This document shows positions 2,311 through 30,041 of a stretch of 37,366 nt of DNA, piece after piece. Under the pieces are notes generated by a model. It had not been told where the DNA came from. It searched no databases and saw only the letters and a program-made list of their open reading frames with translations. Source of the DNA: Leptolyngbyaceae cyanobacterium T60_A2020_046 (GTDB lineage Bacteria; Cyanobacteriota; Cyanobacteriia; Phormidesmidales; Phormidesmidaceae); NCBI GenBank assembly GCA_015272155.1, contig JACYME010000248.1, forward strand, positions 1 through 37,366. Reading direction: 5' to 3'. Position numbers and translations under genes: made by a program. How positions within the stretch are numbered: position 1 is the first letter of the stretch; each line of letters starts with the position of its first letter.

Positions 2311-2874
2311 TTATTGCGGCCACGTGTCGGGATGGGACTCCAAACAGCCGGACAGAAAGGCGATCGCGGTCGTCCGAGCGTGGATTGGGCGAGAACCGTG
2401 TTCCTGCACTTGCCAGCCTGTGACGAGATCGGGCCGCTGCCATAGCGCGGCATGGGGGACGGCGGGCTCTGCATAGAACCTGCGATCGCTGCTGCCGAGC
2501 CAGGCACTGGTGTGGTGGGTAAAGGCATCATGGCTGAGCCGATAGGTGGCAAACGGCCCAGCGATCGCCACACCCCAGCCATCTATTGCAACCACCGCGC
2601 GGACGGCCTCTCCCTGTTGGCTGCGGGCTTGGGCAACGCCCGTTGCGGCAACGCATCCAGCGCTGAAAGCAATCAATAGCAGGGGCGATCGCGCATTGGG
2701 AATCACGGCATTTAGGGCACGATCAAGGGCAAAAGTAGACCAAGCCCAAGTGGGATCAACCGCAGGAATCACGGGCTGAATGTGGCGCGATCGCAAGATG
2801 GGCGCGATCGCGCGCAAAAAAGCATCCGTCCACCCTTGGGGATGGACACCAGGGCATATCACAACCGCCATCAC
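2311..2874 (-). CDS. Small alpha/beta-hydrolase-like protein
   Basis: A 187-residue soluble protein. The N-terminus, VVICPGVHPQGW, is the first beta strand and oxyanion-type loop of an alpha/beta hydrolase. LLLIAFSAGCVAATG around residues 66-80 matches the nucleophile elbow, with serine in A-F-S-A-G in place of the canonical G-x-S-x-G. VRAVVAIDGWG follows as the next strand. I cannot place the catalytic acid and histidine confidently, so the substrate is unknown. It resembles short, uncharacterised cyanobacterial proteins of this fold. The start at 2874 is a tandem Met-Met, and the upstream DNA is AT-rich, as expected for a promoter. It is probably transcribed alone. Confidence 0.7.
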   Translation of the reverse strand: MMAVVICPGVHPQGWTDAFLRAIAPILRSRHIQPVIPAVDPTWAWSTFALDRALNAVIPNARSPLLLIAFSAGCVAATGVAQARSQQGEAVRAVVAIDGWGVAIAGPFATYRLSHDAFTHHTSAWLGSSDRRFYAEPAVPHAALWQRPDLVTGWQVQEHGSRPIHARTTAIAFLSGCLESHPDTWPQ

Positions 2875-3396
2875 ATCTCATAAACCATACATTTCTTTAG
2901 GCTCGACGCTCTTCCTCAAAGTCTTACACTCATCGATATAAACTTAATTATCTTTCCGTGTCTTTTTGCAACCATTCGGACTTGATTCCTGAAGAGAAAA
3001 GGGTTTTTTTCTAAAACATAAATAGGAGCTGCTCAGTCATGGAGGACGATAGAAGCATCCCCAAAAAATAATGCTCTCAGCATGTGTTCAGAGAAAAATA
3101 TCTCGATGGGAAACAGGTATAGGATCAAACCTTAACAGGATTTAGAGCACTGAATTTAGGTTTCTAGCTTGCCATCGTAAATCTTTTCTTGGATTGCTCT
3201 GCCAGGCAATGCTGATTGGTTTTGCGAGGCATCCGGAGGGTGTAAAAGACAACAAAGTATGCCCCTATTGTTGAGCAGGTTTTGTATTCTGCACGTCTCC
3301 GTTGTCAGCTTTGAGTCGGCTGTGCTTGCCTCAATCCCAAGCGCACGCCGTTCAGATAGAGGAGTTGGCGTCACTAACTTATTCTGGAGTGGGATC
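2875..3396. promoter_or_regulatory. AT-rich divergent intergenic region
   Basis: This 522-bp region separates the minus-strand hydrolase from the plus-strand ComFB-type gene and is visibly richer in A and T than its surroundings, especially 2930-3080. It should hold both promoters. An AGGAG near 3026 precedes a 10-codon frame starting ATGGAGGACGAT, which may be chance. I see no longer gene with coding character. Confidence 0.45.
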
Positions 3397-17481: not shown

Positions 17482-17970
17482 CTAACGCTGAAACCATGCA
17501 GTGAGGGCCACGGCAAGGGCGTCGGCGGCGTCATCGGGCTTAGGAATGACAGACAGGTTCAGTTCGTGGGCGACGGCGTCTTGCACCATGCCCTTATCGG
17601 CATTGCCATAGCCCGTGAGTGCCTGCTTGATTTGAGCAGGCGTAAATTCCACCAGGGGTAGATTGTGTTGCGCCAAGACCAGCAGCACAACCCCGCGCGC
17701 TTGGGCAACCAAAATCGTGTTGCCCATGCGATAGAAAAAGAGTTTCTCTAGGGCAACGAGATCGGGTTGAAACTGCTGCACCAAGCTGTGGAGGTCGTCA
17801 TACAAAATTCTGAGGCGATCGCCAACAGGGGCTTTGGCTGGGGTTTCCACAACACCAAAGTCGATGACGCAAGCCCCGGCAGCATTCTCCGCAGCGTCAC
17901 CTACACCCGCGATCGCCCCAAACCCGAGAATCGCTAACCCAGGGTCAAGCCCCAGGATGCGCTGGGCCAC
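17482..17970 (-). CDS. ruvC: Holliday junction resolvase RuvC
   Basis: A 162-residue endonuclease that cuts Holliday junctions moved by RuvAB. The acidic catalytic residues are in place: Asp in [14 protein letters not shown] near the N-terminus, Glu in [11 protein letters not shown], and Asp residues in [16 protein letters not shown] near the C-terminus. [14 protein letters not shown] and [22 protein letters not shown] are typical RuvC blocks. It starts with GTG at 17970, whose G is the last base of the chlI TAG stop (TAGTG), a one-base overlap implying translational coupling to chlI. The stops of ruvC and the permease gene lie 29 bp apart. Confidence 0.95.
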
Positions 17971-19064
17971 TAGCTGACGCCCGCAGGCTGGCGACCGTTG
18001 GCCTCTGCATCATCGAGTGCGACGCCAAAGACCTGGCTAAACACCTTCTCGACCTTGTAGCCCGAGTCAATGGACTCTAGGGGATCCTTCCGCAGGCGGT
18101 GGCGCAGGCAGAGGGCAATCACCCGGCGGATATCGTCCAAGGTGACTTCCGTGCGCCCTTCGTAGGCCGCGATCGCCTTGGCCGCGCGATTGGTCACGAT
18201 ATCACCGCGCAGACCATCCACATCCAGCTCAGAACACACCTGGGAAATTTTCACCCGCAGGTCGTGGTCAATCGTGACCTGGGACAGCCGCCCTTGAGCG
18301 GCGACCAGCTTGGCCTGGAGGGCTTGCTGTTGTTCAGCATATTGGGCGAGGTAGGTTTGCGGATCTTGGTCAAAATCAGACCGTTGCTCCACAATTTGCA
18401 CCCGCAGCTCAGGGTCGCGGACGGTGCGAATCTCGGCGTGCATCCCAAAGCGATCGAGCAACTGGGGACGCAATTCCCCTTCCTCGGGGTTGCCAGAACC
18501 GACCAGCACAAACTGAGCTGGGTGCCGAATCGAAATCCCTTCCCGCTCCACGGTGTTCCATCCCGAGGCGGCGGAGTCGAGCAAGACATCGACGAGGTGG
18601 TCATCCAGCAGGTTGACCTCATCCACGTATAGAATGCCGCGATTGGCCTTTGCCAGCAGGCCGGGCTCAAAGGCTTTGACCCCTTCAGACAAGGCTTTTT
18701 CAATATCAATGGTGCCGCAGACCCGGTCTTCGGTGGCGCCGAGGGGGAGATCGACCATCGGTACTTTTTTCTTGGCGATGGTTGGAGCTTTGCCACCGAG
18801 TTCCTGCAAAACGTCGGGATCTTGGGGGGAGCGGTTGAAGGGATCGTCCGCGACTACATCAATTTCGGGCAGGAGGTCAGCCAGGGCGCGAATGGTGGTG
18901 GATTTGCCGGTGCCGCGATCGCCCATAATCATCACGCCGCCAATGCGAGGGTCAATCACATTCAGCAGCAGGGCAAGCTTCATGTCGTCTTGCCCAATCA
19001 CCGCAGTAAACGGAAAGACGGCTCGACGTGGGGCGGTGGTGGGTTTTGCGGCAGTCACAGTCAC
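17970..19064 (-). CDS. chlI: Magnesium chelatase ATPase subunit I
   Basis: A 364-residue AAA+ ATPase that, with ChlD and ChlH, inserts magnesium into protoporphyrin IX at the first committed step of chlorophyll synthesis. It begins [19 protein letters not shown]. Walker A is GDRGTGKST (about 49-57), Walker B is [20 protein letters not shown] (about 144-163), and sensor/arginine residues lie in [19 protein letters not shown]. The C-terminal helical lid includes [21 protein letters not shown]. Length fits the cyanobacterial and plastid enzyme. ruvC follows with a one-base overlap. About 200 bp separate its start from the glycosyltransferase gene. Confidence 0.97.
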
Positions 19065-21051: not shown

Positions 21052-21669
21052 TAGAGCCCCTGAGTATTGCTGTGATTCGCCGCGATCTCACCCAGAATAG
21101 GGCAAGGCCAGCAACGCAAGTGATTTGATGGTTATTCTGCCACACCCCACGGGCGCACCATCTCCCCAACTCGCTCGCCTGGGACAATCACAGCGCATCG
21201 AAAATTCTCAATGAAAGACAGCCCCAAAATCAGGACGGGAAAATTATTCCTAAAAAGGGAATTTACTCCATGGCCCTCAGGGGGCGATCGCGGAAGGCTG
21301 CCATTCTATACCTTTTACAGAATCCCCCTTGCCTCCAAGTTCAGCGATCCCATTCCATTGAGAAACCCATTTTCAAGCATTTCAGGACTTATCACTGCGG
21401 TAAACGAATGTTAAATAAATCTAGCCGTGCATTAAGAAACGCATCGAACTGTGGAAGCCGTTCCCCCATCGGGCAGTCTATTACAAGAGCCAGGGATGGC
21501 AGATCAAAGCCCCAACATCCTGATTCGTCCACCCTAGCTTAGGCTCTAAAAGTCGATGTTTTGACTGCCATTCCGAATTGGCATGGTGTTGGCAAAACGC
21601 CTTAATCACCATCATCAAGCATTGATTTTGAGCTATGCTGTTCGCTCTTTTTGCATGGGTGATAATTTT
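21052..21669. promoter_or_regulatory. Divergent intergenic region before the orphan phycobiliprotein gene
   Basis: 618 bp between the glycosyltransferase (minus) and the phycobiliprotein-like gene (plus). It should carry both promoters. Reading frames inside are short, poor in coding character and without ribosome binding sites. I see no RNA gene or repeat. Confidence 0.4.
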
Positions 21670-22143
21670 ATGCCTGCACTCAACCATCGTCTTCAGCAAA
21701 CCATCATCGACGCAGATGGATGCTATCTCACTTCCGACGAACTTCGTCCCCTCGAAACCTACTTTGAAACCTATCAAAAGCGTCTAGAAGTTTATCAGCA
21801 AATCAGTCAGCATAGTAATGCGCTGGTTCTCGCTGCACTAAAGAAGTTTGCACGCGTGCATCCTGACGTCATCCAAAAAAGTGGTAAGCGATGCCAGTTT
21901 GATATGACTCAGGTCTTGCGCTATATCGCCCTCTCTATCCTGCTTGATGATGAATTCATGTTCCAGGAAAAGATGATGTTCTGGCTCGATACAATGTTGC
22001 GTGCCCATCGCAAACAAGAAGTTTGCGCCAAGGCCTATCACTACCTACAAGAAGTCATCCAAGAAACGATGTCTGTGAAGGTAAATGAAATGGTTCGCCC
22101 CTTCATCACCCTGGTTTCAGAATCTCTACAGCCCTATCGCTAA
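21670..22143 (+). CDS. Orphan phycobiliprotein-family (allophycocyanin-like) protein
   Basis: A 157-residue all-helical protein of the phycobilisome globin-like family. DADGCYLTSDELRPLETYFETYQKRLEVYQQI covers the N-terminal helices. The chromophore segment KRCQFDMTQVLRYIALSILLDDE matches the ApcB pattern C-x-x-D-x6-LRY exactly in spacing. Cys75 is the bilin-attachment position and Asp78 the pyrrole-contact position; the usual arginine between them is Phe77. The C-terminus resembles the last helices of allophycocyanin. It is not adjacent to apc or cpc operons. It could be an ApcD/ApcF/AplA-like subunit. The start is ATG 21670 or ATG 21655, neither with a clear ribosome binding site. The linker gene follows after 179 bp on the same strand. 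Confidence 0.8.
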   Translation: MPALNHRLQQTIIDADGCYLTSDELRPLETYFETYQKRLEVYQQISQHSNALVLAALKKFARVHPDVIQKSGKRCQFDMTQVLRYIALSILLDDEFMFQEKMMFWLDTMLRAHRKQEVCAKAYHYLQEVIQETMSVKVNEMVRPFITLVSESLQPYR

Positions 22144-22322
22144 GCTCTCGACAGCCTAAAGTCATCGCGGGATTTCGACTACCGTTACCAGCCTATTTCG
22201 CGGCGCACCGAAGGTAGTTTGAGTTCCACGTCTTTGGGTGAGTTCGTCCGTGCAAAATATCCCTGAGAAATCGCCCCCTTTCTCATTTCTCCGTTTCGGA
22301 AACCCCTTGAGGAAGGTTCATC

Positions 22323-23054
22323 ATGAAATCGACTGCGACAAAGGTGACCGTTGATCGCAAATCGTCTGTCCGCGATCGCGAAGCTGCCCTGTTTAGAATC
22401 TACGCCCAGGTTCTCGAGCGCCAACTCTACGCCTACGAACGTCGGCTTTTAGGAGTCGCTGAAAAAGACTTCCTAAACGAAAAAATTGGCGTTAAGCGAT
22501 TCCTAAAAATCCTAGGTCACTCAGAGGTTTACCTCAGCGAGTTTTATGAAAATAGCTCAAATCTCAAGTTTCTAGAGCTATGTTTCAAGCACTTTATGGG
22601 GCGTGCGCCCTACGATCGCGAGGAAATGCGCTACTACTGTAACGTGCTAATGCGCGACGGCGTCAAGGCACTGATCACAGAACTGATTGACTCTGAAGAA
22701 TATCGCAAACACTTCGGTTGTTTCACGGTACCCCACCCCATTGAAGAAAACACCTATGTGTCGCCAAAGGCATATCTAGAAAGTGATATTCTCAATCAAG
22801 AATTCCACGGTCGGCGTGGCTTTATTGTGCCGACGATGCTGTGGCACGATTTAGGGCTAGAGTGTGACGGTGGCCATTGCGCGTTGCAACAGCCGCAAAA
22901 TATGGACTTCTCAAACCAGGCCAATATTGATCGCGTGGAATTGTTCCAAGCCCTACGCCGGATGCAGCCCGAAGATTTGGAAGAAGTTGCTGCTGCTCTG
23001 CCGCCTCAACAACGGGCCATGCTCAGCCAAGTTTTGATCAAAAGCGGACGCTAA
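22323..23054 (+). CDS. Phycobilisome linker-domain protein (CpcG-like, short)
   Basis: A 243-residue soluble protein. Residues ~18-140 are a PBS_linker_poly domain: EAALFRIYAQVLERQLYAYER, FLNEKIGVKRFLKILGHSEVYLSEFYE, NLKFLELCFKHFMGRAPYDREEM, and LITELIDSEEYRKHFG. The remaining ~100 residues include SPKAYLESDILNQEFHGRRG and a charged C-terminal helix, and match no rod or core linker tail I recognise. No membrane helix like that of CpcL is present. GAGGAAGG lies just before the ATG. With the phycobiliprotein gene 179 bp upstream it forms a likely two-gene unit, which suggests this linker binds that subunit. Confidence 0.85.
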   Translation: MKSTATKVTVDRKSSVRDREAALFRIYAQVLERQLYAYERRLLGVAEKDFLNEKIGVKRFLKILGHSEVYLSEFYENSSNLKFLELCFKHFMGRAPYDREEMRYYCNVLMRDGVKALITELIDSEEYRKHFGCFTVPHPIEENTYVSPKAYLESDILNQEFHGRRGFIVPTMLWHDLGLECDGGHCALQQPQNMDFSNQANIDRVELFQALRRMQPEDLEEVAAALPPQQRAMLSQVLIKSGR

Positions 23055-28726: not shown

Positions 28727-28966
28727 AAATTGAGAATCATATTCATTAAAGCGCGATTCTCTACCGATTTTTTGCCGCTTAGCCAAAATTATCCGCAATA
28801 GGGCGACCACCAGAATTGCCCCAAATACCAGAATTCTCCGACAAGAGAGGCTTTCAATCGACTAAAGGCTTGAAAAACCCCATCAAGATACAATTCTTAA
28901 TCACAATTTTGTTGAGAATCGTTCCGATCTATGGTGAGATAGTCACTGTTGAGAATTGAAATCAAC
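28727..28966 (+). promoter_or_regulatory. isiA: isiA upstream region with three TTGAGAAT repeats (candidate Fur sites)
   Basis: TTGAGAAT occurs at 28730, 28912 and 28949. The first copy extends to TTGAGAATCATATTCATTAA, which resembles the Fur box (11 of 15 core positions against ATGATAATCATTATC by eye). The third lies in GTTGAGAATTGAAATCAAC, with GTTGA/TCAAC as inverted ends. isiA is repressed by Fur in studied cyanobacteria. The two near copies lie about 65-100 bp before the start codon. Confidence 0.5.
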
Positions 28967-29012
28967 AAGCGTTCATGACATCAAGAACATCCTCGTTAAG
29001 GAGGCCATGCTG

Positions 29013-30041
29013 ATGCAAACCTACGGCAACTCGACCGTGACCTACGAATGGTGGGCGGGGAATGCCCGTTTTGCGAATCTGTCGGGTCTGTTTATTGCAG
29101 CCCACGTCGCCCAAGCCGCCCTCATTACCCTATGGGCGGGATCCTTTACGCTGCTTGAACTTTCGTGGTTTGACCCCACCCTACCAATGGGTGAGCAGGG
29201 CATGATCCTGCTGCCTCACTTGGCAACCCTCGGCTTTGGTGTCGGAGATGGGGGTCAAGTCGTCGATACCTATCCGTACTTCGTGATTGGCTCCCTGCAC
29301 CTAATTTCCTCCGCAGTGCTGGGGGCCGGGGCGCTCTTCCATGTCCTCAAAGCGCCCGCCGATCTAAAGGAGGCCAAGGGCCGCGCCCGTCAGTTTCACT
29401 TTGACTGGGATGACCCCGCCAAGCTAGGCCTGATCCTGGGCCATCATCTCCTGTTCCTCGGGGCGGGGGCGCTGTTGCTGGTCGGCAAAGCAACGCTCTG
29501 GGGCGGGCTCTATGACGCTGCGAGCCAGACGGTGCGGGTGGTGACGCAGCCGACGCTGGATCCGCTGGTGATCTATGGGTATCAGACCCACTTTGCCAGC
29601 GTGAATAACCTGGAAGACCTCGTCGGCGGGCACATCTATGTTGGCGTGCTGCTATTGGCGGGCGGTGTCTGGCATATTGTGATGCCGCCGATGGCGTGGG
29701 CCAAGCGTGTGCTGCAATTTTCCGGCGAAGCGATCCTTTCCTATTCCCTCGGCGGCATTGCGCTGGCTGGGTTTGTGGCGGCCTATTTCTGTGCGGTGAA
29801 TACCCTGGCCTACCCGTCAGAGTTCTATGGCCCGCCTTTAGAAGTCAAGCTGGGAATCATGCCCTACTTTGCAGACACGGTGGATCTGCCTCTGGGGGCA
29901 CATACGGCGCGGTGCTGGCTCGCCAATGCCCATTTCTTCTTGGCCTTCTTCTTTTTGCAGGGCCACCTGTGGCACGCGCTGCGGGCCATGGGCTTTGACT
30001 TCCGTCGGGTAGAAAAGGCGCTAAACGCCGTCGGTTCCTAA
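29013..30041 (+). CDS. isiA: Iron-stress chlorophyll-binding antenna protein IsiA (CP43')
   Basis: A 342-residue thylakoid membrane protein with six helices that binds chlorophyll a and forms rings around photosystem I, or quenching aggregates, under iron limitation. It opens [21 protein letters not shown] and has the family's chlorophyll-ligand histidines: [75 protein letters not shown] and [21 protein letters not shown]. The large lumenal loop of PsbC is absent, as expected. ATG 29013 lies 8 nt after TAAGGAGG; ATG 29007 is too close. The length matches IsiA exactly. No isiB flavodoxin gene follows; a terminator does. Confidence 0.96.

Follow-up and report, generated by a model that had tools for sequence, protein, structure and literature searches.

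A conserved gene pair for an orphan phycobiliprotein-like globin and a dedicated REP linker in cyanobacteria, with a possible role between antenna and photosystem assembly

The window analysed here is a stretch of 37,366 nucleotides from the Leptolyngbyaceae cyanobacterium T60_A2020_046 (GenBank assembly GCA_015272155.1, contig JACYME010000248.1). It carries a gene for a phycobiliprotein-like globin and, 179 bp further on the same strand, a gene for a phycobilisome linker (Table 1). A sequence-only reading of the window had described the first as an orphan outside any apc or cpc operon and the second as a PBS linker with an unfamiliar tail of about 100 residues. Both descriptions were borne out, as the apc and cpc genes of normal type sit on other contigs of the same genome (4.2 Mb in 250 contigs) and the linker continues for about 105 residues beyond its PF00427 domain. 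The start of the globin was placed at MPALNH from an alignment of orthologues, which begin at the same M..LNH, and an in-frame ATG lies upstream at 21583. The same reading had drawn attention to isiA. An IsiA/CP43-family gene is indeed present in the window, with a match to the Rfam IsrR antisense RNA inside it on the opposite strand, but its link to the pair is not conserved, since the isiA cluster did not recur beside orthologous pairs at the 61 loci compared. A chlI-like magnesium chelatase subunit gene is found upstream of the pair in the window. Elsewhere this arrangement was limited to Leptolyngbya sp. PCC 6406 (L050) and a small number of relatives, and the cluster comprised four loci.

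Table 1. Features of the window, with positions counted from its first nucleotide.
Feature	Position	Strand	Basis or remark
chlI-like magnesium chelatase subunit gene	17970-19064	-	
Conserved upstream half-site TTAAGAAACGCATC	21432-21445	+	motif enriched upstream of orthologous globins
Conserved upstream element GGGCAGTCTA	21471-21480	+	39 nt past the half-site
Phycobiliprotein-like globin, 157 aa	21670-22143	+	PF00502, E=1.4e-18; AF2 model pLDDT 86.5, phycobiliprotein fold
Cys75 codon, at the place of the alpha-84 bilin Cys	21892-21894	+	invariant (60/60) where the orthologue covers the site
Gap between globin and linker genes, 179 bp	22144-22322		
Dedicated single-REP linker, 243 aa	22323-23054	+	PF00427, E=8.2e-36; own clade in linker tree
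REP (PBS_linker_poly) domain, linker residues 17-138	22371-22736	+	PF00427; Foldseek to ApcE/CpcC REP domains
Linker tail, residues 139-243, RGxxxPT...W(H/Q)xL...C-x4-C	22737-23051	+	low-confidence model beyond the REP domain
C181-x4-C186 (CDGGHC) in the linker tail	22863-22880	+	
IsiA/CP43-family gene	28956-30041	+	PF00421
IsrR antisense RNA match inside isiA	29406-29583	-	Rfam, 74.4 bits

The match of the globin to the Pfam Phycobilisome family was far beyond chance, and its score against the NCBIfam apcB model was far under the cut-off (33 of 228 bits). The protein keeps Cys75, Asp78 and Leu83-Arg84-Tyr85 at the ApcB spacing (C, C+3 and C+8 to C+10), as had been noted from the letters alone. 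Among the orthologues that cover the site, Cys75 proved to be invariant, and the same was true for Asp78 (60/60) and for a Tyr or Phe at position 77 (60/60), with Arg74 in 59/60. An aspartate three residues after the cysteine contacts the bilin nitrogens. A further cysteine, Cys119, was near-invariant (60/61). The arginine of the CxRD motif is absent, the motif reading CQFD in the window and CxYD or CxFD across the family, and about 10 residues are missing from the stretch before the cysteine, compared with ApcA/B and CpcA/B. In the AlphaFold model, helices 22-63 and 65-92 run almost continuously, without the usual B-E loop. The fold of the model is that of allophycocyanin (Foldseek TM ~0.8), and comparison with light-harvesting phycobiliproteins gave VIA-align Z scores of up to 19.3 and an rmsd of 2.6 over 154 residues. 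With the CxRD arginine missing and the B-E loop short the pocket is altered, and thus Cys75 may not carry a bilin.

The REP domain of the linker scored 123 bits against a curated PF00427 cut-off of 28.7, and outside its own family it scored highest against the REP domains of ApcE. A tree built from REP domains set the linker family apart as a separate clade (98/97). Its sister was a 182-aa linker from two Thermostichales-like genomes (joint group 100/99), and the two together stood apart from the ApcE repeats and the rod linkers. Assignment as a CpcG-type linker was rejected because of this placement and a score against the NCBIfam CpcG1 model far below the cut-off (66 of 430 bits). The linker belongs to a separate class, distinct from CpcG, CpcC and ApcE. 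The tail has motifs that are nearly fixed among 48 linkers, with RGxxxP(T/A) in all 48 and C-x4-C in 47, and the shortest linkers (Laspinema, 197 aa) stop just past the tail motif and the cysteine pair. The Pseudanabaena linker is often a head-to-tail duplication of the whole REP domain, with a length of 430-445 aa (L094, L095, L096, L098-L100, L102 and L147).

Orthologues were found at 60 named loci in Leptolyngbyaceae, Oscillatoriaceae, Laspinema, Microcoleus, Roseofilum, Pseudanabaena and others. When the window was included, the linker followed the globin on the same strand at 48 of 61 loci, mostly within 10-300 bp, and the suspected two-gene order is therefore conserved. In a sample of 386 genomes across the phylum, 16 carried a globin orthologue (at least 171 bits) and exactly the same 16 carried a linker orthologue (at least 259 bits), with a clear gap in the scores below; Fisher's test on the co-occurrence gave p 1e-28, uncorrected for kinship. 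A hand tally of 59 closer genomes placed the linker in 21 of 22 globin-bearing genomes, the one with a globin and no linker being G054. Five genomes of one genus had the linker without a globin of the window's type, and there a second orphan globin family was found elsewhere in the genome. No paper naming the globin-linker pair was found in the open-access literature searched. The pair is a real and conserved two-gene unit, and within that literature it is apparently undescribed.

To place the globin, a tree of 58 globins was built, in which the light-harvesting subunits split from all orphan globins with 100/100 support. The notion of a variant core subunit, one of the three possibilities first offered for the pair, was rejected by this split together with the shortened B-E loop. 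Of the two outcomes that the sequence-only reading had named as counting against it, a place inside a known core subunit clade and a Cys75 that varies among orthologues, neither was observed. A second conserved group in these genomes consists of the Slr0146- and Slr0149-like globins of the slr0144-0152 (Pap) cluster, which were recognised by the V4R and Fe-S genes in their neighbourhood; the names Slr0146-like and Slr0149-like were taken from gene order and from PMC10151467 and PMC6002478. A non-photosynthetic relative (L154) carries a cluster of genes for an Fe-S protein, a V4R protein, a globin, a second V4R protein and a protein read from its sequence as heme-oxygenase-like. When added to the tree, its globin fell among the cluster globins. 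The resulting clade, including the bacterial globin, had 100/99 support, and the window's family (93/88) stood outside. Membership of the Slr0149/Slr0146 group, the cyanobacterial bilin biosynthesis-associated globins (BBAGs), had been favoured at first and was withdrawn once these bacterial cluster globins had joined the tree. The window's family and the second orphan family were instead placed between the antenna and BBAG poles. As both lie outside the antenna and BBAG clades, they would represent separate deep branches of bilin-type globins. By distance the window's family is nearer the BBAG side, since the antenna branch is the longest internal branch; a tree that holds the family and the antenna subunits together is worse by 3 log units (AU p 0.148).

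The second orphan family has an intact CxRD motif and was seen at L112:5992-6447, L125:5590-6054, L122:13985-14449 and L036, and in the genome of the last of these (G043) the linker protein search gave no linker-type match at all. Proteins with several phycobiliprotein-like globin domains in tandem were found in non-photosynthetic relatives (L151:3-1526, 508 aa, and L154:1119-1922, 268 aa), with heme-oxygenase-like genes nearby.

V4R proteins, which we take to be a marker of the Slr0144-0152 (Pap) cluster for PSII assembly, were present in 59 of the 386 genomes overall and in all 16 genomes that bear the pair (p ~1e-14, uncorrected). When families were counted once, 9 of 9 with the pair had V4R proteins, against 23 V4R-bearing families of about 50, and a hand calculation gave p ~3e-4; in part, the co-occurrence reflects shared lineage. 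In a minority of cases the pair was physically linked to the V4R cluster, and most pair loci, including the window, are unlinked. At L083, a kinase gene and Slr0144-, Slr0146-, Slr0147-, Slr0148- and Slr0149-like genes lie just upstream of the pair. In Oscillatoria and Laspinema (L088, L089, L091 and L093), Fe-S, kinase, KGK-domain and GvpL/GvpF-like genes lie upstream, and in a Thermostichales-like genome (L120) the gene of the sister REP linker (2668-3216, minus strand) divergently adjoins the V4R cluster's Fe-S gene. The KGK-domain and GvpL/GvpF-like genes sit between a Ser/Thr kinase gene and the pair (L083:5663-7814, L089:5550-7817 and relatives), and a gas-vesicle-type protein is thus found in a context resembling photosystem assembly in Oscillatoria and Laspinema. 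Work on Synechocystis implicates the slr0144-0152 operon in PSII assembly (PMC9145668), and Slr0144-Slr0149, described as thylakoid-located, were reported to interact with one another (PMC9880817). Binding of bilins by the BBAGs needs no lyase, their fluorescence is weak, they show no photoconversion, and their functions are stated as not known (PMC10151467). The pair is co-inherited and always accompanied by a gene set for photosystem assembly, and for this reason it probably forms a small complex rather than an ordinary part of the antenna.

The DNA upstream of the pair is also conserved. Ahead of orthologous globins the half-site occurred 30 times, where 1.5 occurrences would be expected. 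Across orthologous loci the signature reads TTAAGAA..(A/G)C(A/T)(T/G)C, followed at ~39-41 or 59-60 nt by GGGCA(A/G)TCT, and in several species the TTAAGAA half-site is duplicated at 20 bp. In the window's own genome the strict combined pattern occurred once, at 21432-21480. The spacing of the elements suggests a promoter of the activator type. Among 59 upstream regions, none contained the HLR1 pattern and 7 contained the NtcA pattern. A search upstream for a sigma-70-like promoter found none, and the conserved motif matched no nameable regulator. The idea that the motif is shared with the V4R operon was rejected. There was one match near that operon in the own genome (L110:5381), and this is likely due to chance since the motif was absent before the V4R operon in the other genomes checked.

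Taken together, we favour, with slightly less than even confidence, the explanation that the pair is a dedicated module of two proteins, a distinct bilin-type globin and its own linker, which would act as a split mini-ApcE and couple the antenna to photosystem assembly or repair. In such a module the globin would assemble into a small oligomer, in the simplest case a dimer, with phycocyanobilin on Cys75, and the REP domain of the linker would hold the globin or a neighbouring allophycocyanin ring, as the REP domain of ApcE does. The RGxxxPT-W-C-x4-C tail may dock the unit on a V4R/Fe-S/BBAG partner (Pap, slr0144-0152), so that the complex would connect antenna components to assembly or repair instead of serving the bulk antenna. 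An adaptor tying phycobilisomes to another complex had been among the first suggestions, and it is this one that the comparative data favour, with a Slr0144-0152-type cluster as the likely other side. Pairing, co-inheritance, residue conservation, tree positions, co-occurrence with V4R genes and, in some lineages, linkage to their cluster are observed, and bilin binding, the oligomer, the physical complex, its docking partner and its function are inferred. A more specific version, in which the globin is a third bilin-globin lineage, branching deeply between the antenna proteins and the BBAGs, that acquired its own REP linker and, together with it, makes up a chromoprotein complex of the mini-ApcE kind between the antenna and V4R/Fe-S-based photosystem assembly, is possible but rather doubtful.

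Because the bilin pocket is altered, an adaptor without any bilin stays a serious rival, although we consider it unlikely. The globin fold would then be a docking protein with a redox or structural role for Cys75 and Cys119, and the C-x4-C pair of the linker would sense redox. This fits the missing pocket loop and CxRD arginine, the near-invariance of Cys119 (60/61) and of the linker cysteines (47/48), and the related Slr0149- and Slr0146-like globins that lack a bilin cysteine. It is difficult to reconcile with Cys75 at the exact alpha-84 position and Asp78 in every sequence, and with the near-invariant Arg at position 83. Alternatively, the globin could be a minor phycobilisome subunit, in the core or the rods, that takes an ordinary part in light harvesting and is attached to the core by the linker. 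Membership in PF00502 and PF00427 and the likeness of the REP domain to those of ApcE would agree with this, as would the interface residues of the Asp13, Tyr18 and Arg type, which act between phycobiliprotein subunits and are kept here as Asp16, Tyr19 and Arg84. We regard it as quite unlikely, given that the globin falls outside all Apc and Cpc subunits (100/100), has lost the B-E loop and an intact CxRD, and is encoded by a single gene with no alpha/beta partner. Moreover, the pair occurs in only 16 of 386 genomes and is perfectly nested within the V4R-bearing ones, whereas phycobilisomes are, to our knowledge, nearly universal among cyanobacteria.

Two further explanations were considered. 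In one, the globin binds bilin and is an energy trap in times of stress or repair, quenching detached phycobilisomes while held in place by the linker. The low fluorescence yield of BBAG-type holoproteins (3-7%, PMC10151467) and a REP-type linker that could hold an antenna ring are consistent with it, but nothing in the sequence separates such a trap from an assembly adaptor, and we consider it decidedly unlikely. The other, a photosensor of the AplA kind, had been the remaining suggestion of the sequence-only reading and is very improbable. The globin is an orphan phycobiliprotein outside the antenna operons, and AplA, described as a non-light-harvesting phycobiliprotein in a passage of PMC2246261 that cites it, is a precedent. 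However, there is neither an output or signalling domain nor an adjacent regulator, a REP linker would be superfluous for a sensor, and the related bacterial BBAGs were photoinert and did not photoconvert (PMC10151467). In addition, an AplA-like protein (L126) grouped on the light-harvesting side of the tree, with the caveat that its identification is tentative and its branch long. The two-protein module coupling the antenna to photosystem assembly or repair remains our preferred explanation.

If the globin is indeed a third, deeply branching lineage, it may inform the origin of the light-harvesting phycobiliproteins, and the place of the window's globin outside both known groups bears on this origin, which was left open in PMC10151467. 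A globin that keeps its cysteine and has a private linker of the phycobilisome type would provide a physical handle on what such globins bind, and where. The slr0144-0152 system and the BBAGs, to whose bilin globins this question applies, are linked to photosystem assembly.

The pair was also compared with known systems. AplA is likewise an orphan phycobiliprotein outside light harvesting, but it is ApcA-like, and the window's globin lies across the 100/100 split from the tentative AplA-like candidate. That candidate (L126:8709-9335, G041) has a CWRD motif, sits among cpc and linker genes and has a very long branch. With ApcA/B/D/F and CpcA/B, the globin shares the fold, the N-terminal X/Y helices, the equivalents of Cys84 and Asp87, and LRY. 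It differs from them in the ~10 residues absent before the cysteine, in CxYD/CxFD for CxRD, in the missing GGN-type B-E loop that surrounds the bilin of light-harvesting proteins, and in its place outside an apc/cpc operon. The linker resembles CpcG/CpcL in having a single N-terminal PF00427 domain followed by about 100 residues of C-terminal tail. In contrast, it has a shorter N-terminus and the RGxxxPT...C-x4-C tail, and does not form a clade with the rod and rod-core linkers of its own genome. ApcE (LCM) also combines a phycobiliprotein-type domain with REP domains, to which the REP domain of the window's linker scores closest, but the system described here consists of two chains with one REP domain from a distinct clade and a unique tail. 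The BBAGs (Slr0146/Slr0149; Rockwell et al. 2023, PMC10151467) are single phycobiliprotein-like globins with no alpha/beta partner, as is the window's globin, and they share genomes with it and, in some lineages, loci. The term 'PBS linker' is absent from the main text of that paper. The window's family lies outside the BBAG clade and usually outside the V4R cluster, and the bilin cysteine, no longer present in the Slr0146- and Slr0149-like globins, is kept in every one of its globins, which are, unlike the BBAGs, accompanied by a dedicated REP linker.
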